Shown here piece after piece: positions 44,777 to 61,300 of a stretch of DNA of 64,000 nt (position 1 is its first letter; every line of letters begins with the position of its first letter). The translations under genes were made by a program, and so were the position numbers. A model generated the notes under the pieces. That model was not told the origin of the DNA. It saw only the letters and a list, made by a program, of their open reading frames with translations, and did no database searches. The DNA comes from Cyanobium sp. Cruz-8D1 (lineage in GTDB: Bacteria > Cyanobacteriota > Cyanobacteriia > PCC-6307 > Cyanobiaceae): positions 1 through 64,000 of the forward strand of contig NZ_JAGQCD010000013.1 of the NCBI RefSeq assembly GCF_024345975.1. Direction: 5' to 3'.

Positions 44777-45778
44777 TCATCGGGGCGGGGTTTGGCGTTC
44801 GCCCAGAGCCGCTCCAGCGGCCCCCACCACGAGCTCCACGGCTTGGCGGGCCTCCCCGAGGACCTGGTACAGCACCTGCGGGCTCTGCCGGAGCAACTCG
44901 ATCCAGTGCCCCAGGTAAGCCGCGTGGTTTTCAAGCGCACTGCCGATCTCCAGCTGGTCCCCCAGCAGCACTGAGCCCAGCTCCGCTACGAGCTCCTCGC
45001 GGGCGTAAGCCCTGGAGCCACACCGACCGCTGAGGTCTCGGTTGAGGCGACTGGTGTGTCCCGTGGAATGAATCACCTCGTGGGCCCAGGTGGCATAGAA
45101 ACCTGCGGCTGTATGAAACGCCTGGCGCTCAGGCAGCTGGATCCGATCGATCTGCGGGAGGTAACAAGCCCGTTCCCCGCCGTAGCTCACCGGCACCGGC
45201 CAGGCCCCCAGCAGAGACTCAGCCGCTGCCAGCCGTTCTGGTTCACTGCGCTCAGCCCCAGCAGCTTCTGCCTGCCTTTGCTCCACCCAGCCAGCCAGGG
45301 CGGCACCTTCAAGATCCACCGCGTTGAACACCACCACTGGGCGGAAGCTCATCCAGACGCGGTCGGCTGCGTTTCCTGCTTCAGTGCCTGAGTCCGAGGT
45401 GTCCGGGATCCCCGACCCCTCCGTACCAGCTGCCACCCGGTTGACCTGTGGGCGCAAGATCCGCACCCCCTGCGAGCCTTTACGGGGGAAGATCCCTTGG
45501 GCACGGGCCTCGGCAAACCCGCACCAGTACGGCAACCCAGAACCCCGTAGGTGCATCCCCAGGCACAACAAGATCGGGTTGGCCCCCTGGTAGCGATGAC
45601 CGCTCAGGAGGTTGACGTGGTGCCCACCACCGGTGGAGTCCCATTCGCGGCGCCAGGGCGTGGTGCCTGCTTCCAGCAGCTGGATCAGCGCCTCCACAAG
45701 ACGGTCGGGTTGAGCATTCGACTGGCTGGTGGGCTCGGAGCGGGTCTTCGAACGGGAGCGGGAAGAAACAGCAGCCAT
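44777..45778 (-). CDS. ArdC-like antirestriction / zincin protein
   Basis: A 333-residue protein matching the ArdC group. The N-terminal ssDNA-binding-type domain (about residues 20-150) includes TPWRREWDSTGGGHHVNLLSG, NPILLCLGMHL and KGSQGVRILRP. The C-terminal zincin-like metallopeptidase domain holds HEVIHSTGH near residue 234 (HExxH) and the downstream ELVAELGSVLL glutamate. ArdC of conjugative elements protects incoming DNA from restriction. Its place beside a defence locus suggests it arrived with a mobile element. The ATG at 45778 is used. Confidence 0.8.
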   Translation of the reverse strand: MAAVSSRSRSKTRSEPTSQSNAQPDRLVEALIQLLEAGTTPWRREWDSTGGGHHVNLLSGHRYQGANPILLCLGMHLRGSGLPYWCGFAEARAQGIFPRKGSQGVRILRPQVNRVAAGTEGSGIPDTSDSGTEAGNAADRVWMSFRPVVVFNAVDLEGAALAGWVEQRQAEAAGAERSEPERLAAAESLLGAWPVPVSYGGERACYLPQIDRIQLPERQAFHTAAGFYATWAHEVIHSTGHTSRLNRDLSGRCGSRAYAREELVAELGSVLLGDQLEIGSALENHAAYLGHWIELLRQSPQVLYQVLGEARQAVELVVGAAGAALGERQTPPR

Positions 45779-46016
45779 CGGGCAGCAGCGCAGGACCCGA
45801 AGCACCCGCGCGGCCAGCAGCAAGGGCTGGCCCGGGGCCTCGACCTACAACCAGTTCCACCGGGCGTCACCAACCCAAGGCGGGCCAGCTTGCGTCAGCC
45901 CTTGTGCGGCCGCGCATGCTGAGGAATCCAGCGCGCGCCACCTTTGGTGGATTCGGGGGTGGCATCAGCCATCCGCCCCAGGCGTCTTGATGCAATGACT
46001 GCCCCAAGCCCTGCCA
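45779..46016. other. Gap between drmC and the ArdC-like gene
   Basis: About 240 bases without a recognisable gene or strong terminator. It would hold the end of the drm transcript and the promoter of the ArdC-like gene. Confidence 0.4.
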
Positions 46017-46814
46017 TCAAGCCTCAATGTCCAGGGGCAAAAAAAGGCCCTGGTCCACGGACAGCGTGAACTGGCGCCTGATCTCCTGAACCCTTGATGT
46101 TGACGTCGTCAGCCAGCCAGCCTCTACGTTGTGACGCTGGGCGGTTTCGCTGAAGTTGGCGCTGGTCACAAGGGCTTTGGCGTTGGGGGTCGTTGCATCA
46201 GCGATGACAACCTTGGCGTGCTGATAACAACGCTCAGGTGATCCGGAAACCAGCCGTCGGTCCACGTAGGCATGGGGCTTGGTGGGCCAAGGCCAGACGT
46301 CCCGGTTGAACCATGCTGAAATCGTCGCCAGGGGGTCAGCACCAAGGCGATCCTCAATCTGCTTGGGGTGGAAGAACAGGTCGACACGGTTCAGCTGGCG
46401 ATGGGCCAGGCGATCGGCAATGGAGGCGAACAATTCGCGAAACTCGCTGCTGAGGCCGATGTTGTAGGTGGCGATCAGCAAGCTGCAACGGGCTTCGCTG
46501 ATGAGTTGAGCGACAGTGGCAAACGTGTCGGCCGTTTTGGCATGGAGAGGATCCGGGCCCGACCAGACAAAGCTCCAGGCGTTCCGTTCCTTTTGGAGAG
46601 CGTCCTGGGCATCGGCGAGACGATCCAGCAGCAACGCCATCAGGCGGGGATGGGCCTCCTCTCGGACCATCTCCACCAGCAGTGGTTCGAGCTGCTGGCG
46701 GATCGCTTCGCTGTGGGTAGAGAGCAAGCCCTGCCAGCTGGTGGGGGTGTAGCTCAGTCGCCTCAGATCTGTCGCCACTGCCCGCAGGGTCAGAGCTGGC
46801 AGGGTGGGGCTCAT
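46017..46814 (-). CDS. drmC: DISARM protein DrmC (phospholipase D-like)
   Basis: A 265-residue PLD-superfamily protein. A helical N-terminal part (about 1-85) is followed by one HKD-type motif, YQHAKVVIADATTPNAKALV near residue 200, then TSANFSETAQRHNVEAG. DrmC is the PLD component of DISARM; in the original description it was not essential for protection in all tests. Its ATG overlaps the drmB stop (ATGA), so it is coupled to drmB and is the last gene of the operon. Confidence 0.88.
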   Translation of the reverse strand: MSPTLPALTLRAVATDLRRLSYTPTSWQGLLSTHSEAIRQQLEPLLVEMVREEAHPRLMALLLDRLADAQDALQKERNAWSFVWSGPDPLHAKTADTFATVAQLISEARCSLLIATYNIGLSSEFRELFASIADRLAHRQLNRVDLFFHPKQIEDRLGADPLATISAWFNRDVWPWPTKPHAYVDRRLVSGSPERCYQHAKVVIADATTPNAKALVTSANFSETAQRHNVEAGWLTTSTSRVQEIRRQFTLSVDQGLFLPLDIEA

Positions 46815-48709
46815 GCGTTGATGAACTCCCAGAACGAGGGATCACCCACCTCAGGGTTGGCAGACACGGTGGGACTCACCAGGGCTCGATCGAGGAACTC
46901 ATTGCGAATCTCGCAGGAGGTTTCCGCGATCAATTCACAGCCATGGCAAGCGGCGCCATGGGTGGGGCGGATGTCGAAGGGGTGGTTGGGGTCGTGCTCG
47001 GAGCAGAAGGGATCATTGCTGCAGAGCTGGCCGCGCTCGAAGGCCTTCTCCAGATAGGCCACGATCCGCTTGCCGGCTCCCACCAGGCCGCCCAGGGTGC
47101 CTTCCGATCCGGAGCTGCTGGTGAACAGCAGGATGCCGTAGCCGATCTCGCTGTTGGCGTAAATGCGCTCGCGAATCGAGCTGGCGCCGTAGCCGCACTC
47201 CAGAGCCATCTCAGTGATCAGCAGATGGCTGAGGCTGTGGAGCAGGAGGTAGGGGGCTCCAGGGAAGGGGAACTGGACTTCGTCCAGCCCCCGCGACGCC
47301 AGCCATTCGTTCTCGAAGGCCCTGGTGAACTGTCCGGCCCGCATCGCCACCGGATCACTGGCGGCCCAGGCACGGATCGTGGCGGGATCGAACTCGATGA
47401 AGATCCCTTCCCCCTTGTTCTCACTGGCAGGCACCCAGCGCAGGTCGTTGGCCAGCGGTGCTCGGCGGTTCACCTTGGTGGTGTCGATCGGCAGGCCGCC
47501 GAGGCTGCTGGTGCGAGCTGTGAAGCGGGTGAACCCCACCAGGGCCTGAACTTCCCTCAGGCGGTGCACCAGCAGCACCCGCTTGATGGCATGGCTGAAC
47601 CAGGCTGGAGGGTTGGGGGGCTGCCAGACATCGGCTTCGAACAGGCTCCCCTCGGCTGAGCTGGAGACCCCATCCATGGGACCGATCAGCAGGGCCAGCT
47701 CCTCATCCTTGGGTTGGGCGACCTGGCCGGCGGATCCGCCCCTCTGGGCCTCGATCGTCTGCCAAAGGACTGCTGGATCCACCCCCGCGAAGGCGCTCTT
47801 GAGGCGAGGGTTGAACTTGATGGCTGCAGGCACGTCCGCCTCCGTTTCGATCAAAGCGAGGTCGTCCTTGAGTTCGGTGACGCGCTTGACCAGGGAGTTG
47901 GCTTCCTCCGGCAGGGAGATCACCGAGATCGTCTCGGTGAAGTAGGCGTTGGTGGCCGAACGCACCAGGAGGCGGTTCGTGGTGGGCTCACCATCGGTGT
48001 GGCACTTTTCCGGATCACGGGTATTGCGGCCCAGCCAGGGCGTGTGACCCTGGCAAAGCCCCAGAGGGCTCATGTCCGTGACCAGGGCATCGGCCAGCTT
48101 GCGGGTGGTGCCACCTTCTGACTGCACATAGATCTGGGTGAAGTCGTTGCCGGTACCGGCCTCAAGCAGATAGAGGCGCTCGCTGTTCTTGCAGCCGAAC
48201 TGGCGGAAGCAGAAATCGCGCCAGCGGATATCGCTGAGGTGGCCGTGGGGGCAGGCCATCACGAAGCGAACGGGCACCAGCGAGTACTTGCCTTCGTCGT
48301 CCTGGTAGGTGCGCCAGTCGGAGATGCAGCCGTCGTTGAAGTGCACCAGGGGCCTGGCCCGGCAGGGAACCCCGAACGCGATCCGCTCGCTCACCTTCTG
48401 GGCGACGGACCACTCCGGAAAGCGCAGTGCCTTGATCGAACCGCTGATGCCCTTGAGTTTGTCGACCTCCTTGGGGGGCGTGCGCAGGTCGACCCGGACC
48501 GCCCCTGTGGCCTGCCGCACCAACTGCAGCAGCCGCGGCTCATGGATCAGGTCGCAGCCCCGCTCGTTCCAGAAATCCAGCCCCCCGATCAACAGCGAGT
48601 AGTCGGGCAGATCGACCATCGCCCCGGGCCCATAGAGCTGGAGCACCTGGCTCTGACGGGCCTCGCCGAGGGGCGGGGGAGCAGCTTTGCGGCGCGTGGA
48701 GGGGGGCAT
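46811..48709 (-). CDS. drmB: DISARM protein DrmB (DUF1998)
   Basis: A 632-residue protein with QSQVLQLYGPGAMVDLPDYS near residue 18, typical of DrmB. The C-terminal DUF1998 domain (about 485-610) holds LLLHSLSHLLITEMALECGY, YGASSIRERIY and cysteine clusters CSNDPFCSEH near 563 and CHGCELIAETSC near 588, a likely zinc site. DrmA and DrmB form the core DISARM complex that recognises unmodified phage DNA. It lies 20 bases after drmA and overlaps drmC by 4 bases. Confidence 0.9.
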   Translation of the reverse strand: MPPSTRRKAAPPPLGEARQSQVLQLYGPGAMVDLPDYSLLIGGLDFWNERGCDLIHEPRLLQLVRQATGAVRVDLRTPPKEVDKLKGISGSIKALRFPEWSVAQKVSERIAFGVPCRARPLVHFNDGCISDWRTYQDDEGKYSLVPVRFVMACPHGHLSDIRWRDFCFRQFGCKNSERLYLLEAGTGNDFTQIYVQSEGGTTRKLADALVTDMSPLGLCQGHTPWLGRNTRDPEKCHTDGEPTTNRLLVRSATNAYFTETISVISLPEEANSLVKRVTELKDDLALIETEADVPAAIKFNPRLKSAFAGVDPAVLWQTIEAQRGGSAGQVAQPKDEELALLIGPMDGVSSSAEGSLFEADVWQPPNPPAWFSHAIKRVLLVHRLREVQALVGFTRFTARTSSLGGLPIDTTKVNRRAPLANDLRWVPASENKGEGIFIEFDPATIRAWAASDPVAMRAGQFTRAFENEWLASRGLDEVQFPFPGAPYLLLHSLSHLLITEMALECGYGASSIRERIYANSEIGYGILLFTSSSGSEGTLGGLVGAGKRIVAYLEKAFERGQLCSNDPFCSEHDPNHPFDIRPTHGAACHGCELIAETSCEIRNEFLDRALVSPTVSANPEVGDPSFWEFINA

Positions 48710-48729: not shown

Positions 48730-51700
48730 TCAGTCGTCGGCGGTGATCTCTTCTTTGAAATTGACCATCCGGATCGGTGCAGAGGGTTCCACATCGCGCA
48801 GGCTCCAGTTGGTGGTGAACTGCTTGTAGCCCTCGGCTTGGTAGATCGGGTCGTTGTCGAGGGCGGTGTGCAGGAAGCCCGCCCCAGCACCCTTTTCCTC
48901 ATGGGTCCAGTACTGCAGCTTGGCCTCCGGCTCCTGGGTGAGCTTCCACCAGGCCTCCAGCAGATCGATCACGTGATCGCGCACGTCGGTGGGCAGGTGC
49001 TCATCGAGGCTGTCGTCTGCTGCACCAGTGGCGATGCAACGCTCCTGCAGTGCCTTGGCGATCTGGGCCTTGCTGCGTTGCAGGGCATCGGCTGCCATGG
49101 CGCCCTTGGCACCAGCCAGGGCTGGATCGCCGTGGCGGGCCATCGCCACCACCACTCCCGGCAGGCCGCGGTCAAGGGCCCGGCTGGCGAAGGGCGTGCA
49201 GCTGGTGGCTTCCACATGCCGGTAAAAGGTCTGGTGCCAGTAGGGGAACAGCTCGAAATGGGAGCGATCCCGCGGGCGGTTGGGGTTGAGCAGCACCAGC
49301 ACCAGGCCAGGTTTGTTCTGCTGTGGGTTGTCGCTCAGCTGGCGGCCGACGCGGCTGGTGGCCTGGATGTACTCGGCGGCGGTCTTGGGCTGGTTGAGCA
49401 CCACCATCAAGCCGAGGCGCGAGATGTCGAGACCCACCGAAATCATGTTGGTGGCCAGGGCCACGTCGAGGTGGTCCTTGTCGATGTAGGGCTTGGAGAG
49501 GCGGTCTTTGGTGCTGCTGATCCTGGCGGTGTTGACGCGGGACGTGAGCTCCTCTGGTTCGCAGGGCCGCTTGCGACTGGCGAACGGGTTCTCGAAACCC
49601 TCCATGGCGAGGCCACGATTTTTGGCGAACTGCTCCAACTGGGCGCCGAGTTCGTCTTCCAGGATGCTGCGCGTCACGCCGAGCTCCTTGAGGTTGGAGA
49701 AATAGCCCAGCAGGGTCATGTAGGGATCCGCCGGGTTGTTGGCGCCCATGGCCTTGTTGTCGTTCCAGCCCTTCTGGGCCGCAGCCATCAGGCCCAGATA
49801 AGAACGCAGCAGCACACCCTTGAGGTTGCGGCCCGGGGCTGAGAGGCCCACGTACAGCCGCGCCTGGTCGGGATCAGGGATGGTGCGGGAGAAGAAGTTG
49901 TCGTCGCGTTCGGGGCCCGGCGGCGGAAAGATCCGCACCTGGCTGCGGGCGAACAGGGCCTTGATCTGGGCCTCGGCCCGGCGCACGGTGGCGGTGGAGG
50001 CAATGATCTTGGGAGGCGGGGTGGAGGCGTTCGGCCGCATCAGCCCCTCGATCACCGTTTCATAGAGGCCAGCGAGGGTGCCGAGGGGGCCACTGATCAG
50101 GTGCAGTTCGTCCTGGATCACCAGTTCCGGCGGCAGCAGACGGCCGTGGGGAATCTTCAAGCCACCCGTGCCCTTTTCCGCCGGCCCCCAGAAGCCGGCA
50201 GGTGCAGTCCCCGTGGGCAACTGATAGGTGCTGACGTTGCCGAACAGCGAGGAGGTTTTGCCGACCCAGGGGAGGGCGGCGAACTTGTCGATCGTGGCGA
50301 TCAGAAAGCAGGGCAGGCGGCGGTAGATCTGCTCATCCACCGCCAGCACCGGCAAAGGCGTGCCCTTATGGAAGGGGCATGGCCCCATGGGGGCGAATTC
50401 CTGCTTGGCCTCAGGAGAGCGGGGCTCGCGGCAGTAGATCTCCAGACGATCGGGATTCCTCGGGGGCAACAGGTGGAATCCTTCCGGCTGGAGGGGGCGG
50501 TTGCACCAGGGGCAGGTTTCAATTGGAATCGGACGGTCGCGCTTGCCGGCCTTCCACTTGGTGAGCACCGCATGGGTGGACTGCTGGTCGCTGTCGCCCG
50601 GTCCGCCGAGCTTGTTGGGGGTGGCGGCCTTGCCCACCCACATGCCGATCTCGAAGGGCCATTCACCCAGCAGGTAGGGGTCGCTCTTCTCGATTCGCTC
50701 CAGGCGCTCCAGCTCCAGGGCGCAGATCAAGGTGGCGGCGCGGCCGAGCTGATCGAGGGTGAGCAGCCGCAGGGTGTAACGCATCAGCACCGTGATGCCG
50801 GCGGATTCGATCCCAGGGCTCTGCAGGCGACGGTGCACCAGGAGGAAGGCGGCCAGTCCCAGGTACGCCTCCGTCTTGCCGCCACCGGTGGGGAAGAACA
50901 GCAGCTCCACGGCCTCACGATCCAGCCGGCCATCGGGTGTCTCTGGAGCCGCCAGGCCCGGCAGGTTCATCAGCACAAAGGCCAGCTGAAAGAAGCGCCA
51001 CTTGGGGGCGCGGGTGTTCGGAGCGATGCCGATCTGATCCGGCGGCACCTTGGCGCTGAAGGCACTGCGCTGGCGGCTGGCGCGGGCCATCACCAGGTTC
51101 ATGGTGCGGAAGGCCTCGCGCACCAGGGGATCGGCGAGCAGCTTGATGCCGTTTTCGATGCGCGTGGCGCAGGCTTCCGCCTGGGCCCGCAGCTGCTTGG
51201 CGGTTTCGTTCTGCTCGTTGTTGCTGATGGGGTGTTTTGGTTGCTGGGTGATCCAGCCCCGGTAGGAGGTCACCATCGGCATCAACTGCTGGCCGATGCG
51301 TTCGCTGCGGGCCAGATCCGCCAGGGCCTCCATGCCCATCGGCACGTTGGTGCCGGGGGGTGGTTCCGGCAGGGTGCGGAAGACCCGGGCCGTGGGTAGC
51401 CAGGTGGTGGTGAGCGTGTGGCAGCGGGCCGGGTTGTCGTCTGGGATGTCTGAGGCGATCACGGCGACGTTGTGGCCGCCCGCAAAGCAGTAGTCGCGCC
51501 GGTACTGGAGAGCCGCGAGGCGTTCGTCGGGATCCTTGGCGGCCTGCTGCAGGGCATCGCGACGCGGTGGGAAGCCCTGGGGGCACTGGAGGCTCAGCTC
51601 CACCTGGAAGGCAGAAACCGGATCACGGTGACGGATCTGGTTGGTCCTGGGCGGCTCCCTCTTGTTGAGCAGAAACAACGACACCGACAGCTGATCACTG

Positions 51701-52269
51701 GGATAGCCGAGCTTGCTGGGGGCACGCCGAGCAATCCAGCGCAGGCAGAGGCCCTGAGGGTTGGCCTCCAATGGGATGTCTGGGCTGGTGCCCTCGCCGG
51801 CGATCGTGAGCGTCACGCTGTGGCGCTGAGGGGTGCGCAGCCAGAGCTTCTCGTCGTCGCCATCGGCCGGGGCTGTGTAATCCCCCCAGGAGACAGTGGC
51901 CTCGATGGTGGAGCCACGCTCCAGGATGAAGCTCAGGCCGCAGGAGGAGGTAAACCAGCTGCGGCGGGTGTTGGCCTGATCGAGGGCATCGTTGGCGTCG
52001 TCGTCGTTCTCGTTGCTTTCCAGGCGATGGCCGGCGTCATTGCTGGGTTCTTCTCCAGCGAGATCAGCGAAGGACAGTTGCTCATCACCAGAGGCACGAG
52101 CCGCTTCCTGCTGGAACACATGGGGCACCAGGAAGCCCGTGGTGAACCAGACCGAAGGCGGCTGGGGCAGTTGCTCACGGCGGCGGGCGACATCGTCCCA
52201 GCCTGGTCCGATCAGATCGCTATGCAGGGCAGCGACCAGCTGGGAGCGGATGTCGGCGGAGGTAGCCAT
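48730..52269 (-). CDS. drmA: DISARM helicase DrmA
   Basis: A 1179-residue SF2 helicase. Walker A is LLFFPTGGGKTEAYLGLAAF near residues 455-472; the Walker B/DEAH-like IQDELHLISGPLGTLAGLYE is near 718; motif VI IQATSRVGRQLSD is near 970. The N-terminal ~400 residues are specific to DrmA. DrmA binds and moves along DNA in the DISARM complex. It starts 4 bases after the hepT stop, which ties the toxin pair to the drm operon. Confidence 0.92.
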   Translation of the reverse strand: MATSADIRSQLVAALHSDLIGPGWDDVARRREQLPQPPSVWFTTGFLVPHVFQQEAARASGDEQLSFADLAGEEPSNDAGHRLESNENDDDANDALDQANTRRSWFTSSCGLSFILERGSTIEATVSWGDYTAPADGDDEKLWLRTPQRHSVTLTIAGEGTSPDIPLEANPQGLCLRWIARRAPSKLGYPSDQLSVSLFLLNKREPPRTNQIRHRDPVSAFQVELSLQCPQGFPPRRDALQQAAKDPDERLAALQYRRDYCFAGGHNVAVIASDIPDDNPARCHTLTTTWLPTARVFRTLPEPPPGTNVPMGMEALADLARSERIGQQLMPMVTSYRGWITQQPKHPISNNEQNETAKQLRAQAEACATRIENGIKLLADPLVREAFRTMNLVMARASRQRSAFSAKVPPDQIGIAPNTRAPKWRFFQLAFVLMNLPGLAAPETPDGRLDREAVELLFFPTGGGKTEAYLGLAAFLLVHRRLQSPGIESAGITVLMRYTLRLLTLDQLGRAATLICALELERLERIEKSDPYLLGEWPFEIGMWVGKAATPNKLGGPGDSDQQSTHAVLTKWKAGKRDRPIPIETCPWCNRPLQPEGFHLLPPRNPDRLEIYCREPRSPEAKQEFAPMGPCPFHKGTPLPVLAVDEQIYRRLPCFLIATIDKFAALPWVGKTSSLFGNVSTYQLPTGTAPAGFWGPAEKGTGGLKIPHGRLLPPELVIQDELHLISGPLGTLAGLYETVIEGLMRPNASTPPPKIIASTATVRRAEAQIKALFARSQVRIFPPPGPERDDNFFSRTIPDPDQARLYVGLSAPGRNLKGVLLRSYLGLMAAAQKGWNDNKAMGANNPADPYMTLLGYFSNLKELGVTRSILEDELGAQLEQFAKNRGLAMEGFENPFASRKRPCEPEELTSRVNTARISSTKDRLSKPYIDKDHLDVALATNMISVGLDISRLGLMVVLNQPKTAAEYIQATSRVGRQLSDNPQQNKPGLVLVLLNPNRPRDRSHFELFPYWHQTFYRHVEATSCTPFASRALDRGLPGVVVAMARHGDPALAGAKGAMAADALQRSKAQIAKALQERCIATGAADDSLDEHLPTDVRDHVIDLLEAWWKLTQEPEAKLQYWTHEEKGAGAGFLHTALDNDPIYQAEGYKQFTTNWSLRDVEPSAPIRMVNFKEEITADD

Positions 52270-52273
52270 GGCG

Positions 52274-52624
52274 TCAGGGAGCCTCCAACTGCTTGAGCAA
52301 CTGCTGGCAGCTGGCGTGCAGGGCCTGCAGGTGGTGCTGGATCACGCCCCAGACCAGCGGATGGTTGATGGTGACGTACTCGTGGGTGAGCTTGTTGCGG
52401 AAGCTGATGATCTGCGGTGCCTCCTCAACGCGGGCGAAGAGGTCGGCATCCCGGCGGGAAAGGTGGGTGAGAGCCTCTCCGATGATGATGAATTCGCGCT
52501 CCACAGAAGAGCGAATCAGCCGGCTCTGCTCGTAGTGCTCCAGCGTGATGCCTGCAACGGCCGCCTGGATGGCCTCGATGGCCTCCTGAATGTCCAGCAG
52601 GTAGGCCCGGGGATCACGCTTCAT
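52274..52624 (-). CDS. hepT: HEPN RNase toxin HepT
   Basis: A 116-residue DUF86/HEPN protein, an all-alpha RNase. The catalytic motif RNxxxH is intact: SFRNKLTHEYV with Arg76 and His81. GEALTHLSRR and a C-terminal HHLQALHASCQQLLKQL helix complete the family pattern. HepT toxins are silenced by tri- or di-AMPylation by MntA. Its start overlaps the mntA end by 11 bases and its stop is 4 bases from drmA. Confidence 0.9.
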   Translation of the reverse strand: MKRDPRAYLLDIQEAIEAIQAAVAGITLEHYEQSRLIRSSVEREFIIIGEALTHLSRRDADLFARVEEAPQIISFRNKLTHEYVTINHPLVWGVIQHHLQALHASCQQLLKQLEAP

Positions 52625-52925
52625 AGATCAACTGCTTGGACGCATCGATGTCGGCCCGCACGTAGCGGTTGCGCACGGCATCTGCCATCACCAGATCCAC
52701 ACGCTGGCCGGTGATGGCGGCAAGTTGACGCTCCAGGCCGAAGTAGGCGCCCACCAAAGCAGCAGGATCGATCGGCTGAAACTCCACCAGCAGATCAAGG
52801 TCGCTGCGGCTGGGGTCGAAGTCGTCCCGCAGTCCAGAGCCAAACAGGTGCATGCGCAGCACCCGGTGCTGCCGGCAGGCGACGGCAATGGCGTCCAGCT
52901 GGGGCTTGGCAAGGGTGAGGCTCAT
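52614..52925 (-). CDS. mntA: MNT nucleotidyltransferase antitoxin MntA
   Basis: A 103-residue minimal nucleotidyltransferase. The GSGLR motif is at residues 29-33 and SDLDLLV at 41-47, giving the GSxxR...SDxD pattern of active family members, with a third acid in VDLVMAD near residue 76. MntA AMPylates its partner HepT next to the RNase site. It precedes hepT with an 11-base overlap, the standard order, and lies 30 bases after the SAP-like gene. Confidence 0.9.
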   Translation of the reverse strand: MSLTLAKPQLDAIAVACRQHRVLRMHLFGSGLRDDFDPSRSDLDLLVEFQPIDPAALVGAYFGLERQLAAITGQRVDLVMADAVRNRYVRADIDASKQLIYEA

Positions 52926-52955: not shown

Positions 52956-53483
52956 TCAGCTCTTCGGTTGCCTGGGATCCGACCAGGCCTCATCGATGGC
53001 GTCGGTTGCGGTTCCCAGTTGTCGCAGCAACAGCAACAGCAGTCGCTCGATGCGGTTGGCCTCTGGCGGGTAGGGAAGGGAGGGGACAGCAGCAGGGCCT
53101 GGGGCCTCCGCAGCGTGTTCTCGCTCCTGCCGTCGGACCGCCTCCACGGTCTGCAGTTCAGGGCCCAGCTTTTCCTGGAGGAAGGCGATCAGTTCGCTGC
53201 GGCGGAGCTTCGACCAGCCACGCAACCCATGGCGCCGGCAGATGTTCTGCATGTCCCCGGCAGTAAGGCTGTTCAGATCCAAGCCAGGGGGAAGGAGGAC
53301 GTCAGCGGTTTCAGAGAGGAGATGGCCGTGGCGTTCCTCGATCCGGCCGGCCTGCCGCTGGAGATAGTCATCGAGGCCGCGGGTGTGGTTGGCAAGAATG
53401 GTGCCCAGGGTGTGCAGATCGGCGCCAAGGCTGTCGCTGATCGGCGTGCCACGGCGACGACGGGGCTCAGGCTTCATCGTCAT
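52956..53483 (-). CDS. Unknown protein with SAP/Rho-N-like motif
   Basis: About 175 residues from an ATG at 53483 (another ATG at 53477). A helical N-terminal half (GADLHTLGTILANHTRGLDD, YLQRQAGRIEERHGHLL) is followed by LTAGDMQNICRRHGLRGWSK and LRRSELIAFLQEKLG (about residues 75-110), which fits a SAP or Rho-N-terminal fold that binds nucleic acid. The C-terminal helix is RIERLLLLLLRQLG. Not a known DISARM component. It overlaps the coiled-coil gene upstream. Confidence 0.65.
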   Translation of the reverse strand: MTMKPEPRRRRGTPISDSLGADLHTLGTILANHTRGLDDYLQRQAGRIEERHGHLLSETADVLLPPGLDLNSLTAGDMQNICRRHGLRGWSKLRRSELIAFLQEKLGPELQTVEAVRRQEREHAAEAPGPAAVPSLPYPPEANRIERLLLLLLRQLGTATDAIDEAWSDPRQPKS

Positions 53484-53988
53484 CGATCGATTCCTCGAAG
53501 AACTCAACGGAATCGGCCCGCTCCAGCAACCGTTCCACCGCGAGCTTGAGATCCTGGATCGACTGGCTGGTGGGGCCACCGCTGGCGCGCTCCTGCTGGT
53601 CGACCGCCTCCTTGATGTCGGCCAGGTTCTCCAGGGCCTGCTCGATCTGCTGCACCTGCAGCAGCCGGCCCTTGAGGCGTGGCAGCACGGCGGAGATCTG
53701 GTTGGCCTCCTCCTCCACCTGTTGGCGGTAGGCGAGCAGGTCGTCCCGTTCCTGCTCCAGGAGGGTCATCTCCGCCTCCAGCTGGGCGATCTTCTTCTTG
53801 GCCTTGGTCACCAGACCCTGCTGGGCCCCGGCGCGGCGGTTGGCGGAGATCAGGGACTCGCGCATGTCCCGGTAGAAGTTGCGCAGATCGGCGAAATGGA
53901 TCAGCTGGTGCACCAACGGAAACCGCCGCGAAGAGGTCTTGTCGATCTCCGCAGGGGACTGGCTGGACGTTCGACGGGCGGCGGGCAT
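53467..53988 (-). CDS. Unknown coiled-coil protein heading the drm operon
   Basis: A 173-residue protein from ATG at 53988 (MPAARRTSSQSPAEIDKTSS). After a short N-terminal domain (RRFPLVHQLIHFADLRNFYR) it is a long coiled coil (about residues 55-125; KKKIAQLEAEMTLLEQERDD) ending in a very acidic tail (FFEESIDDDEA). A frame start at 54066 is possible. No family recognised. It is the first gene of the run coiled-coil, SAP-like, mntA, hepT, drmA, drmB, drmC, and is divergent from the Fic gene. Confidence 0.6.
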   Translation of the reverse strand: MPAARRTSSQSPAEIDKTSSRRFPLVHQLIHFADLRNFYRDMRESLISANRRAGAQQGLVTKAKKKIAQLEAEMTLLEQERDDLLAYRQQVEEEANQISAVLPRLKGRLLQVQQIEQALENLADIKEAVDQQERASGGPTSQSIQDLKLAVERLLERADSVEFFEESIDDDEA

Positions 53989-54258: not shown

Positions 54259-54276
54259 TTTGAAGCAAGTTTGAAG
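54259..54276. repeat. TTTGAAG direct repeat in the fic/coiled-coil gap
   Basis: TTTGAAG occurs at 54259-54265 and 54270-54276, 11 bases apart, in an AT-rich stretch directly in front of the Fic start. The one-turn spacing suits an operator for a dimeric regulator, perhaps the winged-helix tail of the Fic protein itself. Inference only. Confidence 0.35.
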
Positions 54277-54277
54277 T

Positions 54278-55612
54278 TTGTCGCCCTTGTCCGCCCGGCT
54301 GCCCCGCAAGCCCCCTTCTCTCCAGGAGATGCTGCAGCGCTGCGGGGGACTGGAGGAGACGCTGCCGATGCTCTCCCGCCTGGCCACCGCGGCGGAAGGA
54401 GATCACTACCTGCACTGGGATGAGCTGCGCCATCGCCCCCCGCCGGAGGGGCTGAGCCATGAACAGTGGTGGTTGGCCGAGAAGCTCTCCCGCCGGCCCA
54501 CCCCACTGCCGCTTCTGGCGAGTGACGGACAGGCCTTCTGGTGCTCGCAACCGCCTGTGCTGCTCCAGGGCCTGCATCAGATCGAGAGGCAGGCTGGTAT
54601 CAATGCGGTGGCCCCCGAGGCCGTCAACACCCGCTCCACCCGGGATCGCTATCTGCTGAGCTCGCTGATGGAGGAGGCGATCACCTCCTCGCAGATGGAG
54701 GGCGCCGCCACAACGCGGGATGTGGCCAAGGCGATGATCCGCAGCCGCCGGCCGCCCCGGGACCGCTCCGAGCGGATGATCCTCAACAACTTCCTGACGA
54801 TGCAGCGCATCCGGGAGCTGCGGGAGCAACCGCTGACACCTGAACTGGTGCTGGATCTGCACCGTTTGGTGAGCGCGGACACGCTGGATGACCCCGGGGA
54901 TGCCGGCCGGCTCAGGCCACCAGGGAAAGAGGTGGTGGTGGACGACGCCTACGGCACCGTGTTCCATGTGCCGCCACCGGCCGAGGAGCTGCCCGGGCGG
55001 CTGGAGGAGCTTTGCCGCTTTGCCAATGGCGAAACCCCAAAGGTGTTCATCCACCCGGTGGTGCGGGCGATCGGCCTGCACTTCTGGCTGGCCTACGACC
55101 ACCCCTTCTGCGATGGCAACGGCCGCACGGCCCGGGCGCTTTTCTATTGGGCGATGCTGCATCAGGGCTACTGGCTATTTGAGTTCATCTCGATCTCCTC
55201 GGTGATCAACAAGGCCCGCGGCCAGTACGAGCGGTCGTTCCTGTTCAGCGAGAGCGACGACAACGACCTCACCTATTTCCTGCTGGCCCAGGTGAAGGTG
55301 ATCCAGCAGGCCATCGCCAGCCTGCATGCCTATCTGGAGCGCAAGGCCGGCGAGGTGGGGGCCCTGCAGCAGCGGTTGGAGGGGATGGATGGGCTGAACC
55401 ATCGCCAGCTGGCGCTGCTGCGCCATGCTCTGCGGCATTCCGGATTCCGCTATTCGGTGCTCTCCCACCAGAACAGCCATGGCGTGAGCCATCAGACCGC
55501 CCGCAGTGATCTGCAGAAGCTGGCAGGGCGTGGGCTGCTGATAGCGGGCAAGGACGGACGGCGGGAGGTGTTTCGGGTGCCCGAGGATCTGGCGATGCGG
55601 CTGCCGGGCTGA
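54278..55612 (+). CDS. Fic family protein
   Basis: A 444-residue Fido-fold AMP-transferase-type protein. The inhibitory motif TSSQMEGA near residue 137 fits S/T-xxx-E-G/N (alpha-inh on the N-terminal side, class II). The active loop HPFCDGNGRTARA is at about residues 274-286 (HPFxxGNGR complete). The C-terminal ~80 residues look like a winged helix (SVLSHQNSHGVSHQTARSDL). Start TTG at 54278; an ATG at 54329 is the main alternative. It is the only gene on the plus strand inside the defence block. Confidence 0.9.
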   Translation: MSPLSARLPRKPPSLQEMLQRCGGLEETLPMLSRLATAAEGDHYLHWDELRHRPPPEGLSHEQWWLAEKLSRRPTPLPLLASDGQAFWCSQPPVLLQGLHQIERQAGINAVAPEAVNTRSTRDRYLLSSLMEEAITSSQMEGAATTRDVAKAMIRSRRPPRDRSERMILNNFLTMQRIRELREQPLTPELVLDLHRLVSADTLDDPGDAGRLRPPGKEVVVDDAYGTVFHVPPPAEELPGRLEELCRFANGETPKVFIHPVVRAIGLHFWLAYDHPFCDGNGRTARALFYWAMLHQGYWLFEFISISSVINKARGQYERSFLFSESDDNDLTYFLLAQVKVIQQAIASLHAYLERKAGEVGALQQRLEGMDGLNHRQLALLRHALRHSGFRYSVLSHQNSHGVSHQTARSDLQKLAGRGLLIAGKDGRREVFRVPEDLAMRLPG

Positions 55613-55890: not shown

Positions 55891-58107
55891 TCAAGTCGCC
55901 ACATCCACAAAGGTATCCGCCATCATCATCTTGTAGTGAGCGTCGTGGTTCGTTTTTTCGAATATCGCCCTGAATACCCTCAGATACGACTCCACCATCG
56001 TTTCATTGATTGAAACATAAAGGTCATCGAGGGCATAGTGTGAACCATCATTGACCCAGGAGCAAAGCGAGTTGCAGATATACCTTTCATTCCCCTCAAA
56101 CTTTGCACAGAGGTCGTCAAAGGCCATGCCACCTAGAATCTTGAAATAGTTCTCCAATATGCGTCGCAACGTGTTTTGGATCGCGGGGCTTGAATGCTCT
56201 TGCTTACGAACCTCCGCCCAAAGCAGCTCATATGATGTTTTTATTGGATTAGACTGATACTTCTCAAGTCTTGACATTAGACCCGGCTTCCTCACGATCC
56301 AGTAAGTCCTTTCACTCAGCGACACACCTTTTTGCCTAGACGGGTAGGTTACTTCCTTGTGAAAGTACACGTTATGAGTGAGAACAAAGATTTGCTTTAT
56401 GTGTCCCACCCCAGCGCGAACCTCACTGAATAGCTGCTTGATAAGACTGCCCACAATAAACAGAATATCGCTATCGAGTCTCGAGACAGGGTCGTCAAAG
56501 ACTACAATCCTATCAGTGGTCATCCCAGTCTCAGTCTCACTACCCTTAAGAAGATAATAAAAATAAAGAAAGGTGACAAATGTCTTCTCTCCTTCGCTTA
56601 AAGTTGCCATAGCCTCTGATCCATCTGAACGAACCAGCTTGTAAGACTTACCGCTGGCTACTGTCGAAAGTATAAAGCCTTGGAAACCAAACGAAGAAAG
56701 CAGACCATTGACACCATCGACGGTTGGCTGGATGCTAGTGGATTGTTTTTCCAGTTCGCTAATCTCTGCCTCCTTCTTCAGCATTTCCGCCGTTGCCTCT
56801 TCGATCTGCGCTGTCATCGCCGTGATCGCCTTTTCCAGTCCATCCTTTGAAGCCTTGTATTTAGAGAGCTCAGGCTTTAATTCCTCAAGAATGAATCTCC
56901 ATATCTGCGCAGTCAGATTGATGCGCTCATTCCTTAGGTTCGCAACCATCTTGTTATGCTCAGCTACATCCATATTAGAGTCGTCGACGAGACCCTTAAG
57001 TACTGCACAGACATTGCTAAGGGAATCCAACTCGACCAATCGGCTCGCTTCCTTCTTCTTTACGGCAAGGCGTTGGTTATTGATTAAAATCTTTGCATCA
57101 AGCAAATCCTTCTCTAATTTTAGCTTCTCCACGTCAAGAAACCTGGAATGCGACGCAATGATTGACTCTATTAGCTGCTGAATTCGCGAAGCTTCGGTGC
57201 GGTAGTCCTCGGCTAGATTATCAATTAACCTGGTATCTTGCGCAAAAGCATCGTCAAAGAAATCTCTTAGACTTTGCGCAAAAGCATCGCTCGTCTTCTG
57301 CTGGCAAAACGGGCACACACCATTATTTACGTGATAAAAGTCTAGGCCAGCTCGAATCCAATCGCTGTTTTCAAGCTTTTTTACCATCGCAGCTATGTCG
57401 ACAGTGTCCTTGCCAATGACTTGCTTTCTAAGAATGGGAGTTGCTTCAAGCTCAAGTAGCTTGGTGGTATCGACAGTGGGAGTAAAAGTCTCCACAGCTG
57501 GGGAACCTGCAAACAGATTCTCCGCTTTTTTCTCCAGCTCATCTAAGGTCAGAAGACTCGCAGCATTTGAGATACTCTCTTCAAGTACCTTGTTCTTAAA
57601 TCGTTCCGCGCTATTCCGAAATCCTTCAAAGCCACCTTGTAGTTTCGCATCGTGCTTTTGCTTTTGTAACCAACACCTGGCTTTGAATCCCACTTCGATA
57701 CTCGCCAACTCCCCCTTCTTCCCTCCCTTCCCATCGTCGCCCTGGAGGTTCCGCCTTAGATTTACAACTTTCGCCGTACTTGCATCTTGCTCTTCCTTCG
57801 CAGATGTAATCTGCGCGAGTATGTCGACCTGCTTCTCGCCTAAAGTGAACACGCCTTTTAGATGTGTCGACTGATTGAAGTTCCGCTCAACAAAGTCGTT
57901 ATTGTAGACGAGCGCCCTTAACTTTTGACCAGCCCTCCAGGTCACTGGACAAGTCGGAAATGTTGATTCATCCGCGATAATCCGACCAATTGTGGTCTTC
58001 CCCGTGCCATTAGAGCCGTAAATGAAATTGAAATGGGATAATCCCTCAAGCAACTCTGCAGTATCGCCGTAGGTAGCAACTCCAGAAATACTAATAGACT
58101 CAATCAT
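55891..58107 (-). CDS. RloC-like AAA_13 ATPase with zinc hook
   Basis: A 738-residue SMC/Rad50-like ATPase. Walker A is FIYGSNGTGKTTIGRII near residue 30; a CPFC zinc-hook motif (NNGVCPFCQQKTSD) is near 266 within long coiled coils; the ABC signature TLSEGEKTFVTFLYF is near 504; Walker B DRIVVFDDPVSRLDSDI near 536; the H loop VLTHNVYFH near 577. This layout is that of RloC/PrrC-type AAA_13 proteins, some of which are anticodon nucleases; the nuclease residues are not certain here. The gene is much more AT-rich than its neighbours, indicating a separate transfer. Confidence 0.8.
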   Translation of the reverse strand: MIESISISGVATYGDTAELLEGLSHFNFIYGSNGTGKTTIGRIIADESTFPTCPVTWRAGQKLRALVYNNDFVERNFNQSTHLKGVFTLGEKQVDILAQITSAKEEQDASTAKVVNLRRNLQGDDGKGGKKGELASIEVGFKARCWLQKQKHDAKLQGGFEGFRNSAERFKNKVLEESISNAASLLTLDELEKKAENLFAGSPAVETFTPTVDTTKLLELEATPILRKQVIGKDTVDIAAMVKKLENSDWIRAGLDFYHVNNGVCPFCQQKTSDAFAQSLRDFFDDAFAQDTRLIDNLAEDYRTEASRIQQLIESIIASHSRFLDVEKLKLEKDLLDAKILINNQRLAVKKKEASRLVELDSLSNVCAVLKGLVDDSNMDVAEHNKMVANLRNERINLTAQIWRFILEELKPELSKYKASKDGLEKAITAMTAQIEEATAEMLKKEAEISELEKQSTSIQPTVDGVNGLLSSFGFQGFILSTVASGKSYKLVRSDGSEAMATLSEGEKTFVTFLYFYYLLKGSETETGMTTDRIVVFDDPVSRLDSDILFIVGSLIKQLFSEVRAGVGHIKQIFVLTHNVYFHKEVTYPSRQKGVSLSERTYWIVRKPGLMSRLEKYQSNPIKTSYELLWAEVRKQEHSSPAIQNTLRRILENYFKILGGMAFDDLCAKFEGNERYICNSLCSWVNDGSHYALDDLYVSINETMVESYLRVFRAIFEKTNHDAHYKMMMADTFVDVAT

Positions 58108-58350
58108 GGCTTGTCTCCTCTGCTGGATTATTGATTGATTCACTTGCTACCGCGTGGCTAGTCCCGTGAGCCAGGTTATGCCTGGTTTTGTGTAGCGAAA
58201 ATCCATCTCGAGCGGAGGGTGCGTCAAGATAGATGCAGCAGACTTTTGGGCGCTCAAATCTGTAGCAATTCCATCGTTTTTGCCACTCATGCTTTAGTTC
58301 AAGCTTGATCCAGTGATGCGCCGGGTGTCGAGGCTGGGCAAGGGAACCAC

Positions 58351-61300
58351 TCACAACCCCAGTCCCATCTGCTCGACTTGTTGAGCTTCAGTCTGGCCCG
58401 AATCGCCCGCCGAGGCGGCTTTGGAGGGCCGGCCCCGCTTCTTGGCCCCACCAGCAATAGCCGCCACCTTGGCCGCCTTCTTCCCGCCCTTGCCATGCAA
58501 CCCCTGGGCCACCTCCTCCGCATAGCGCTCCGCATTCAGCGCCAGCAAGCGGGCGAGCACGTCGTCGCGAACGTCATCAGACCAGCGGTAGCGCCAGGGG
58601 AGTTTCTTTTTGCCCTTCACGGCGCCGTAGGCGCGCACTTGGGCCTCGAAGGCACAGGCTTCATCGGGCTCCCAGAAGAACAGCTCGCCGCTGTCGATGC
58701 GGTCCTGGAGGTCGTCGGGAAGCTGGGCGTCGTCTTCAAGATCGAGGTAATCGAGCCCGAAGCCGCAGTCGGTGAGCACATCGCTCCAGCCGTAGGCGGC
58801 CAGTATGGCCTGATCCATCTCGACGTGGAGACGACGCAGCTCCAGGAGGCCGCTGCTGGTTTCGGCAGGATCGTGGAATCGGTTGTAGGTGCTGGTGAGG
58901 CCTTCGTTGTTGCTCACCATCAGCTCGGCGCGGAATTGGTGGTAGCGCTCGCCGATGGCTTCGAGGCTCTGGCAAGTGGCTGAGTGGGCGGGATCGTTGG
59001 CGGCGGAATCGAGGAGGGCGGTGGGGAAGGGAAAGGTCTCGAAGCAGTCGGAGGGGGTGTAGCGAAGGCGTTCTTCAAGCGAGGAGCCAAGAAACCGCAG
59101 CCACTCTTCATGGAGCTGGCTTTGCAGAGCAGCAAGCCGCTGACTCTCCTCAGTCGAAATGACGATTGTTGCCTCTGAAAAGACGCAGCCCGTGGGCATG
59201 AAGGTGATCTGCCAGTACTGCTGATGCCTTGATAGTGCCAGCACCCGCTCACACCCTGCAATCGCCTCATACAGCGCAGGACATGTCTCTCCAAAGCGCC
59301 ACCAGTAACGTGCACGAATCTCGCGGTTCTGAGCAAGACGCCCAGGCTTCACCTTTCGATCCACAATCGCCATCAGATCCGGCCACTCTCGACGGCACTC
59401 CTCCTCGCTCCGCTCCCCGAAGTTGATCACATAGCGGTGATGGGCATGGGTGGGGCTGCTGTTCACCTCCTCTCCGCCGATATACGGAAGAATCACCTCG
59501 ACATTCTTCGGGTTCTCCGCGATCAACCGCTCCATCGTGGCGATCGGTGAGGGAATGCCCGGTGTGTCGTCGTCGGCCGGGCTGGAATCATCGAAGGTGA
59601 AACCCATGCCCAGCACATAGCTGCCCACGAAGCTCTTGCCGGCATTGGATGCCAGCTGTTTGGGATCCTCACTGCCACCATTGGCGAACAGGAACGCCGT
59701 GATCTGCTGTACCGGCCGCCGCTCCAGCAGCTTCACACCGGCGTAGGCCCCCTTGAACAGGTGCACCACGCTGACCACGACGGCTGCTACGCCGGGCCAC
59801 TTGTAGCGCTTGCGGGCGGCATAAATCGTGCCTCCGTTGAGGCAGATCCAGCGGAGGCCGGTGCTGCGGGTGTCGCCCTGGGCGATGGTGTTGGTGGCGA
59901 TCAGGCCCAGTGATCCACCAGGCCGCAACAGATCAAAGCAGCGGCGGAAGAAGTGGGCCACCAGATCGGCGTTGCCGTGGCTCTCAGGGTGCAGCTGCTT
60001 GAACCAGTCGAGGATGCCGTCGGGGCTGCCCTCGGCGATGGTGTTCTTGCCGGCGAAGGGCGGGTTGCCCACGACAACATCGAACCCCGGCTCTACCCGC
60101 CCGAACACATCCGGGAAGGCGAACTGCCAGTGCAGGGGCGTGATGCCCTTCTCGCCTTCGCGCAGCCGCTCCAACGGTTCTGCCAGCTCGTCCTCCAGCT
60201 CCGCCGCTGAGCTGTGCTGCAGTGTGGCCGCCAGATACAGCTGCTTCAGCTCTACGCGATCCTTCGCCTTCTTGCCGTTGAAGAACGCCGCCACCAGCAG
60301 ATCGCCCACGGTGCGCAGATAGGCGGTGCTGGCGTTCAGCGCATCGAGGGCCTGGCGCTTCTGGGCATCGTCGGCATCGCTGCGGCTGTCGGCATGGAAC
60401 AAGGCAAAGCTGCGGGCCTCTTGCTGCCGCACCTGATCGAGCAAGGTGATCTGGAGCTCGCGCTGCAGGCTCGCCCCCTTCAGGGCCTTCTCAATCTCGC
60501 CGCGTTCCATCCCCACCAGCGAATCGCCGCACTTGAGGGCGTGATCCACGAAGGTGAAGGGCGCGTCCTTGCTCAGGCTCACCAGCCACAGGCTCAGCCG
60601 GGCCAGGTTCACCGCAAACGGGTTCTTGTCGACCCCGTACAGGCAGCTCTGGGCGATCAGCCGGCGGGCATAGATCAAGGGCTCTTCCCCGTGGGCAGAG
60701 CCACCGGGCTGGAGGGCATCTGGCAGGCCCTCCCTGCTCCAGGCCAGCTCCAGCAGTTCGGCCAGGTAGCGGCAGCACTCCACCAGGAAGGCGCCGGAGC
60801 CCATGGCCGGATCGCAGATCTTCAGCGCCAGGATCTGGGCGACCGTTGGCTTGCCGCCGCAACGATCCAACCAAGGCCGCAGGGCTTCTTCCACGATCGG
60901 CCTCGTGAGCGCCCGGGGTGTGTAGTGGCTGCCGCTGCGGCGCCGTTCCTCAGTGGGCTGGAACACCAGGCTGCCGGTGGCCTGGGGTCCCTCGAACAGG
61001 CTGCGGTCAATGCGGGGGGCCAAGGCCTCCAACAGCTCGGCCTCGCTGGTCGCCGCCTTCAGGGCATTGGCCGCTTTGGCCGGCAGGGTGGTGGCGGCCT
61101 GCTCCTCCAGCCAGGCCTTGCGCTTGGCACCCGAAAGAGCCAGCAGGGCATCGAGGTCCACCGCCGTGGTGAGCTGTTTCTTGGCCCCCTGGGGCTTGCT
61201 CTTGAGGCCGATGCAGCGGCCAGGGATGCGGCGCACCGCATAGCCCATGATCCCCTCGTACACCGAGCCGATCTGCTCCACATCGAGGGCGCGGTAGCTG

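Follow-up and report, generated by a model that had tools for sequence, protein, structure and literature searches.

A putatively portable gene cassette encoding a coiled-coil protein and a Rho-N/SAP-like protein is joined to different defence systems in picocyanobacteria

The analysed stretch of DNA (the window; 64,000 nt) contains two short genes on the reverse strand, which encode a coiled-coil protein of 173 amino acids (CC; 53467–53988, ATG start) and a Rho-N/SAP-like protein of 175 amino acids (SAP; 52956–53483) and represent the first and second genes of a cassette. SAP starts either with the ATG at 53483 or with a second ATG at 53477, and its reading frame overlaps the end of CC by 17 nt (53467–53483) or, from the second ATG, by 11 nt. 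The pair heads a contiguous run of genes on the same strand (CC–SAP–MntA–HepT–DrmA–DrmB–DrmC), which continues with an MntA-like nucleotidyltransferase (52614–52925; NTP_transf_2, PADLOC PDC-S09, NCBIfam MntA match below cut-off), a HepT-like HEPN RNase (52274–52624; over the cut-off of the Pfam HepT-like family with E = 8e-18, below that of NCBIfam HepT), the helicase DrmA (48730–52269; NF038325, 1111 bits, cut-off 950), DrmB (46811–48709; NF038324, 519 bits, cut-off 240), and the PLD-like DrmC (46017–46814; NF038319, 163 bits, cut-off 133). SAP and MntA are separated by 30 nt and HepT and DrmA by 4 nt, and the MntA and HepT genes overlap by 11 nt.

The methyltransferase DrmMI (58351–62541; PADLOC DrmMI, 1277 bits) and the helicase DrmD (1140 amino acids; PADLOC DrmD, 1042 bits) are encoded upstream in the same locus and on the same strand; the DrmD gene extends from 62544 to 65966 of the contig, and its part within the window (62544–63998) encodes the C-terminal part of the protein. 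Class-1 DISARM comprises DrmD, DrmMI, DrmA, DrmB, and DrmC, all of which are present, and the locus is a complete class-1 DISARM system. The earlier statement that the pair leads the operon therefore holds for the run from CC to DrmC but not for the locus as a whole, because DrmMI and DrmD precede it. In contrast to the class-1 gene set, the locus contains six extra genes that match no DISARM model: CC, SAP, MntA, HepT, an AAA_13 ATPase located between DrmMI and the cassette on the reverse strand (55891–58143; Pfam AAA_13, 597 bits; PADLOC PDC-S06, 922 bits), and a Fic protein encoded on the forward strand, divergently from CC (54278–55612; Pfam Fic, E = 2e-18; PADLOC SoFic-like, 130 bits). 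The view that neither CC nor SAP is a recognised DISARM component is borne out by the absence of PADLOC or NCBIfam DISARM matches for both proteins.

The surroundings of the pair vary among related loci. In L053 and L054, it lies directly between DrmMI and MntA, and in these loci and L059, CC directly follows DrmMI and the Fic gene is absent from that place. The cassette of L055 likewise has a Fic gene as its neighbour, and L054 contains a weak Fic match between DrmD and DrmMI. In the window, the divergent intergenic region between Fic and CC contains a direct repeat (TTTGAAG-N4-TTTGAAG, 54259–54276) just before the Fic start, which was noticed by eye and is a possible operator. An open reading frame adjoining DrmC (44777–45823, reverse strand) and another near the cassette of L065 (10306–11166) may encode ArdC-type antirestriction proteins.

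Both CC and SAP are genuine genes. Pairwise dN/dS values of 0.07–0.31 for CC (nine sequences) and 0.24–0.60 for SAP (eight sequences) indicate purifying selection, and together with the presence of relatives in other genomes rule out spurious reading frames. The AlphaFold2 model of CC (14 sequences; mean pLDDT 81) consists of a single helix from residue 24 to 136 and a further helix from 141 to 160, and the protein terminates in FFEESIDDDEA, with a pI of 4.1 for the last 14 residues, in agreement with the long coiled coil and acidic end proposed in the preliminary description. In profile databases, CC yielded only weak generic cross-matches with coiled-coil proteins.

The Rho_N (PF07498) and SAP (PF02037) domains share a helix–extended loop–helix of about 45 residues. 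The window SAP matches the Pfam models for Rho_N (E = 0.0035) and SAP (E = 0.099) below their curated cut-offs, with 17.7 bits for Rho_N (cut-off 24.9). Among three relatives scanned, those in L063 (34.3 bits) and L025 (31.6 bits) pass the Rho_N cut-off and that in L022 (17.9 bits) fails, so that the window protein is best described as Rho_N-like and is tied to the family via its relatives. The AlphaFold2 model of SAP (15 sequences; mean pLDDT 72) comprises a long N-terminal helix (residues 14–62), a helix-loop-helix (75–84 and 95 onward), and two C-terminal helices. VIA-align superimposes residues 64–112 on the N-terminal domain of Rho (Z about 5.5, rmsd 2.1, 47 residues) and also on the SAP-like domains of MANF/CDNF (Z about 5), at scores where chance arrangements are common; a Foldseek search by itself returned nothing significant for SAP (E of 2.8 or worse). 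Unlike Rho, the protein lacks the Rho ATPase domain, possesses the long N-terminal helix and C-terminal helices, and is accompanied by CC in all 58 loci. Its Rho-N-like stretch is basic (pI 9.3), and a basic loop/helix-2 pattern recurs in 47 of 58 SAPs, with near-variants among the misses. The weak Pfam match, the relatives over the cut-off, and the tentative likeness in fold of the model are consistent with the suggestion that SAP contains a Rho-N/SAP-like motif that could bind nucleic acid. SAP has no match in PADLOC or NCBIfam, and CC, SAP, and the relatives scanned have no Pfam match over cut-off to HTH, WYL, STAS, kinase, or peptidase families.

The family was delineated with the SAP protein. 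Loci with a match of at least 89 bits at the level of the open reading frame were considered strong or full-length (58 loci including the window, all from the window's own cyanobacterial family, and among them the truncated SAP of L093), and those with 40–89 bits divergent (17 loci). Each locus represents a stretch of up to 20 kb around the matches, with one genome per species. L115 (no matching reading frame) and L069 (21 bits) were dropped, the CC fragments L067 and L068 lay outside the scan, and further SAP matches of 40–55 bits lie outside the locus set (e.g., in G046, G142, G141, G273, G148, G247, G155, and G177). Because the genome searches scored 11–13 candidates in each genome that had been preselected by a permissive screen, all counts are lower bounds.

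Of 299 genomes from the order, at least 75 contain a match to the SAP profile at E ≤ 1e-5. Among 292 genomes from across the phylum (11–13 candidates scored per genome), all strong full-length matches belong to the window's own family, and the best match outside that family among the candidates scored reached 48.8 bits. A search with the long-form and intermediate CC against contigs of 84,980 species (one genome each) confirmed 16 loci, whose titles name Synechococcus (six), Cyanobium (three), Prochlorococcus (one), Microcystis elabens (one), four further cyanobacteria, and one metagenome-assembled genome of Bifidobacterium breve, which is taken to be a mislabelled or mixed record. No relatives of the window SAP, the window CC, or the short-form SAP of L025 were found in plasmids, none of the L025 SAP or the window CC in phage records, and none of a short-form SAP (A6) or the long and intermediate CC (A5) in viral contigs. 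An origin as a phage or plasmid gene was rejected on these empty searches, each made with the queries named.

According to automatic pairing, SAP has a CC match of 40 bits or more as its immediate neighbour in 57 of the 58 strong loci; with the split CC of the remaining one (L066), CC or a CC remnant directly precedes SAP in all 58. The CC gene is split in two in L059, L066, L086, and L093, short in L100, and weakly matched (46–78 bits) in L104 and L109–L114. The spacing between the two genes is −17 in 21 loci, −4 in 18, −11 in five, −1 in four, and −8 in three, which amounts to overlapping reading frames in 51 of the 58; the spacing is +3 or +4 in another six and 124 in one degraded locus. 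The constant adjacency and the overlapping frames support the proposal that the two proteins act as a pair. Also among the divergent SAPs (L070, L116–L131; 40–69 bits), 16 of 17 have an adjacent CC, and some genomes (e.g., G141 and G046) contain several such matches. Separately, genomes of genus g21 contain open frames of approximately 2,000–2,600 amino acids (G114:C1, G192:C47, G195:C87, G196:C10, G199:C156, G215:C8, G229:C29, and G253:C44), most of which have several SAP/Rho-N-like matches in a row.

The genes that follow the cassette are diverse. By hand grouping, 33 of the 58 loci (window included) have a gene of restriction type, or another PADLOC-like one, downstream of the cassette or in its vicinity. 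DISARM or its MntA-HepT is present in ten (the window, L053, L054, L055 in decayed form, L056, L057, L059, L072, L080, and L084), and a DrmD-like gene with a type IIG enzyme in L074. Other cassettes are followed by type I systems with hsdM first (L063, L064, L065 in decayed form, L081, a fragment in L083, L085, and L091) or HsdR first (L086, L088, L089, and L100), GmrSD_N with HsdR (L076, L087, L090, L099, and L102), SspA-SspB-SspC-SspD (L075), PLD-SNF2 with a type IIG enzyme (L095), a methylase with a ResIII-HNH protein (L105), RNase_H_2/AAA_12-type helicases (L082 and L103), or a CC-fused protein and then hsdM (L112). The first genes behind the cassette accordingly vary between DrmD, HsdM, HsdR, GmrSD, SspA, and PLD-SNF2, and a further strong cassette of the window genome itself (L085, on a different contig) precedes hsdM. 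One representative of most partner kinds was scanned with Pfam and PADLOC, and the others were grouped by BLAST or by eye. Most partners are systems of DNA modification or cleavage, among which N6-adenine methylases and SF2 helicases recur. This distribution indicates, at the level of sequence, that CC–SAP is a portable two-gene cassette joined to many different phage-defence systems, and suggests a module with a general role in control or sensing, as opposed to a component of a single system.

Nothing clear is located close behind the cassette in the other 25 loci. The hand grouping counts decayed neighbours (L055, L065, and L083) and distant ones (L057, L082, L103, and L105) as partnered. 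In a leave-one-out comparison, in which reference proteins were drawn from the 58 loci themselves and own-locus matches were excluded, defence homologues were present on the same strand within 6.5 kb downstream in 29 of the 58 loci, as opposed to two of 40 random 19.5-kb regions (either strand) taken from 24 long contigs of SAP-positive genomes; one of these two positives is cysteine-desulfurase-like (L186). L073, L092, and L101 are among the 29 and, by hand, among the 25 without a clear partner. The Fisher p of 1.4e-6 is nominal, because the 58 loci are not independent (shared ancestry and some shared sites). Omission of the MntA, HepT, AAA_13, and SNF2 references lowers the count to 27 of 58 (L055, with MntA/HepT, and L101, with SNF2, drop out; again two of 40 in the controls), and the strictest count (matches of at least 150 bits) yields 20 of 58 versus two of 40 (nominal p 4.6e-4). 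At similar distance upstream, on either strand, defence homologues were found at nine of the 58. The preliminary description held that a wide occurrence of the pair without nearby defence genes would refute it; this applies only in part, since 25 of the 58 loci lack a clear system by hand grouping and yet the enrichment over random regions is strong. At the divergent loci, reference defence genes were found downstream in none of 17 and upstream in four.

Several loci have additional features. In L109, L110, L111, L112, and L114, CC–SAP is followed by an overlapping gene for a protein of 854–1096 amino acids that begins with a second CC-like domain; the proteins of L109 and L114, the two scanned, have no Pfam or PADLOC match. 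In L082, a second CC match (44 bits) lies approximately 2.3 kb behind the first pair and is followed by a 168-amino-acid reading frame that appears SAP-like by eye and an RNase_H_2/AAA helicase, perhaps representing two cassettes in one run. A gene that we presume to be RmuC-like adjoins the cassettes of L064, L075, and L096, whose contents differ (type I restriction–modification, Ssp, and none), and this site is a possible defence hotspot.

The diversity of partners bears directly on the idea that the pair is dedicated to DrmAB or MntA-HepT, sensing DNA for the former or controlling the latter. Such a role has some basis in the long-form subfamily to which the window belongs: DISARM or MntA-HepT genes are present in the locus of all seven partnered cassettes, with no partner in the other four of the 11, and MntA follows SAP in the window, L053, L054, L055, and L059. 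However, the same wider family fronts type I restriction–modification, GmrSD with HsdR, SspABCD, and PLD-SNF2 with type IIG systems; in L057, DrmD, DrmMI, MntA, and HepT are kilobases away from the cassette, and in L055 the neighbours comprise only MntA-HepT. Conversely, at least 36 DrmA genes over the family cut-off were found in 32 of 299 genomes (at most two candidates per genome scored; three genes with an internal stop), and just seven of the 36 (G000, G055, G079, G149, G155, G181, and G216) have a strong cassette on their contig at a distance of no more than about 15 kb. G119 has a broken SAP match beside DrmA and G177 remnants of both genes, and contig ends limit the call in G167 and G283. 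A regular co-occurrence with drmA is thus not observed, and the absence of a strong cassette near the other 29 DrmA genes led us to reject a DISARM-specific subunit. The postulated link to mntA-hepT fared no better: MntA or HepT homologues are present behind the cassette in four of the 57 other loci (L053, L054, L055, and L059), and the pair was likewise rejected as a specific partner of MntA-HepT. All in all, an accessory confined to these two systems is very improbable. A similar picture emerges for type I systems, since HsdM_N is present in 105 of the 299 genomes and HsdM homologues follow 15 of the 58 cassettes; together with the DrmA count, this characterises the cassette as an optional add-on.

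The junctions between the cassette and its partners are precise. Breakpoints were compared pairwise in 20 short-form loci of the 58 (190 pairs). Between loci with different named partners, 89 of 98 alignments stop within 25 nt of the SAP stop codon and nine run past it; if one side is partnerless, all 64 alignments stop there. By contrast, 19 of 22 alignments between loci with the same named partner continue into the next gene, and three end at the SAP stop. The DNA identity of the different-partner pairs is 66–93%; the best pair is L085 (HsdM) and L095 (PLD-SNF2), with 92.8%, and L087 (GmrSD) and L091 (HsdM) share 90.0% from −920 to +9. In addition, SAP overlaps the next reading frame by 4 nt in 12 of the 58 loci, and several kinds of next gene are involved. 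In a SAP tree (quick method), partners change 12 times, as compared to a possible minimum of nine and a mean of 25 after shuffling, which means that partners cluster on the tree, yet GmrSD, HsdM, and PLD-SNF2 occur together within one starred group of six with branches of 0.03–0.1.

On the upstream side, 55 of the 98 different-partner alignments start between approximately 95 nt before CC and the CC start, five start earlier, and 38 later. Of 19 aligned short-form loci, roughly 11 have a similar stretch of approximately 80 nt ahead of CC, and most of these differ in their more distant flanks. L087 and L091 have only this leader, CC, and SAP in common. The short-form leader is surrounded by a weak inverted repeat, seen by eye only. 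The long form shows no clear conservation of a leader; no known operator was found, and a promoter scan near CC in the window gave no match to the consensus used, which cyanobacterial promoters need not fit. In L085, L091, and L095, the cassette and its upstream flank are common (>90%) up to the comparison limit at −2000, but the downstream system of L095 differs from that of the other two, indicating an exchange of the system in these loci behind a cassette that was already in place.

These common flanks, the partnerless cassettes, and the presence of several SAP-like matches in some genomes would also be expected of a hitchhiker, i.e., a selfish, toxin–antitoxin-like or island-boundary unit at defence hotspots that plays no role in the systems and merely serves as an anchor behind which they change by homologous recombination. 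Nevertheless, the junctions at the SAP stop and the frequent 4-nt overlaps with the next gene are those expected for co-expression, neither CC nor SAP matches a known toxin, antitoxin, or integrase family (the neighbouring MntA-HepT does match Pfam families), and the plasmid, phage, and viral searches with the queries named above were empty. We consider a mere hitchhiker unlikely.

A second alternative is a generic sensor or adaptor, in which CC–SAP would bind DNA, be it that of an incoming phage, at replication forks, or lacking modification, and recruit or gate the downstream nuclease, helicase, or methylase as an accessory subunit of many DNA-targeting systems. The Rho-N/SAP-type domain agrees with this idea, as do the charges of the short-form proteins (SAP mostly basic, pI mostly 9–10; CC mostly acidic, with a minority of basic values), the internal position of the pair in the DISARM loci L053, L054, and L059, and the preponderance of DNA-modifying and DNA-cleaving partners; the recurrence of N6-adenine methylases and SF2 helicases in particular would fit an adaptor as well. 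It is hard to reconcile with specific contacts, however, that very similar cassettes (as much as 92.8% identical in DNA) accompany different effectors; furthermore, the majority of the sampled DISARM and type I loci have no cassette. A sensor or adaptor is a possibility to be taken seriously, albeit a rather doubtful one.

We tentatively favour a third reading, not far from an even bet, in which CC–SAP would be a portable two-gene controller cassette of defence operons. The overlapping frames, the attachment of different effectors, and the boundary at the stop codon are most simply explained by an action in cis, on expression, and the quick change between unlike effectors also points to such an action rather than to fitted protein contacts. 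In this controller, CC and SAP would be translated together and probably form a complex, in which CC may multimerise via its coiled coil and SAP would contribute the putative nucleic-acid-binding Rho-N/SAP domain. Situated 5' of a defence operon and equipped with what appears to be a short leader of its own in the best-sampled subfamily, the cassette would control the expression of the co-transcribed genes behind it; most simply, it would repress or tune them until infection or DNA damage provides a signal. In the window, this control would extend to the MntA-HepT-DrmA-DrmB-DrmC half of the class-1 DISARM. Several observations count against a controller: the lack of an HTH domain and of an operator among the searches made, the location of CC–SAP inside the DISARM run behind DrmMI in three loci, the lack of a promoter-like match near CC in the window and of a conserved leader in the long form, the cassettes with no clear system behind them, the absence of one downstream of any of the 17 divergent SAPs, the many DrmA and HsdM genes that do without a cassette, and the methylases and helicases that partners have in common.

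Two-gene controllers ahead of immune operons are not without precedent. CapK-CapS and CapH-CapP are described as "controllers of associated/adjacent pathways" in PMC13373217, where an immune operon follows 348 of 443 capKS loci in strict gene order, CapK is an HTH-STAS-GHKL kinase, and CapS is a STAS-wHTH repressor. CC–SAP resembles CapK-CapS in that two adjacent genes in a strict order lie ahead of diverse immune operons, and the Cap-type feature "upstream of and adjacent to diverse immune operons" applies to 29 of the 58 loci (strictest count 20) versus two of 40 controls. It differs in possessing a coiled coil and a Rho-N/SAP-like domain, in its partners, which are mostly DNA-modification and restriction systems, and in that its regulatory role is inferred. 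We therefore regard CC–SAP as a putative plug-in controller or sensor cassette that is like CapK-CapS in layout but built from other proteins.

Single-gene regulators provide a further comparison. Like CC–SAP, BrxR and CapW are small regulator genes near diverse systems (PMC9122601, PMC9122588, and PMC9122589), but they are single DNA-binding WYL proteins that act on inverted repeats, and neither a WYL domain nor an operator was found for CC–SAP. An association with defence systems was reported for 48.41% of 347 BrxR homologues in PMC9122601, with a distance limit, apparently 50 kb, that is wider than the 6.5 kb of the CC–SAP count. RptR is a small controller linked to type I restriction–modification operons; unlike CC–SAP, it is a single repressor with a 6-bp palindromic site and no coiled-coil partner (PMC12255303). 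The domains that define CapK-CapS, CapH-CapP, BrxR, and RptR were not found in CC and SAP, so that the pair may work in a similar manner without belonging to any of these groups. A preprint on YprA/ARMADA (PMC12458937) mentions coiled coils that occur inside helicases or belong to CoCoNuT systems. Searches of the openly available literature yielded no description of the CC–SAP pair.

Rho-N domains bind RNA. A more specific and rather unlikely version of the controller would be a lineage-specific, HTH-free regulator of immunity, in which the co-translated CC/Rho-N-like pair would bind its own short leader, as DNA or nascent RNA, and gate whichever restriction-type system has recombined behind it.

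The CC–SAP cassette represents a discrete, so far unnamed two-gene unit that has repeatedly become attached, with a sharply defined boundary, to various DNA-targeting defence systems of picocyanobacteria, which corrects the impression that CC and SAP are DISARM-specific parts. If the pair acts as a controller, it could account for the safe uptake of new restriction systems by these cells, would open a way to study how DISARM and Ssp are regulated, and would serve as a genomic marker for new defence systems, with any genes behind CC–SAP as candidates. Should the HTH-free version prove true, picocyanobacteria would exchange their effectors under one constant control unit.
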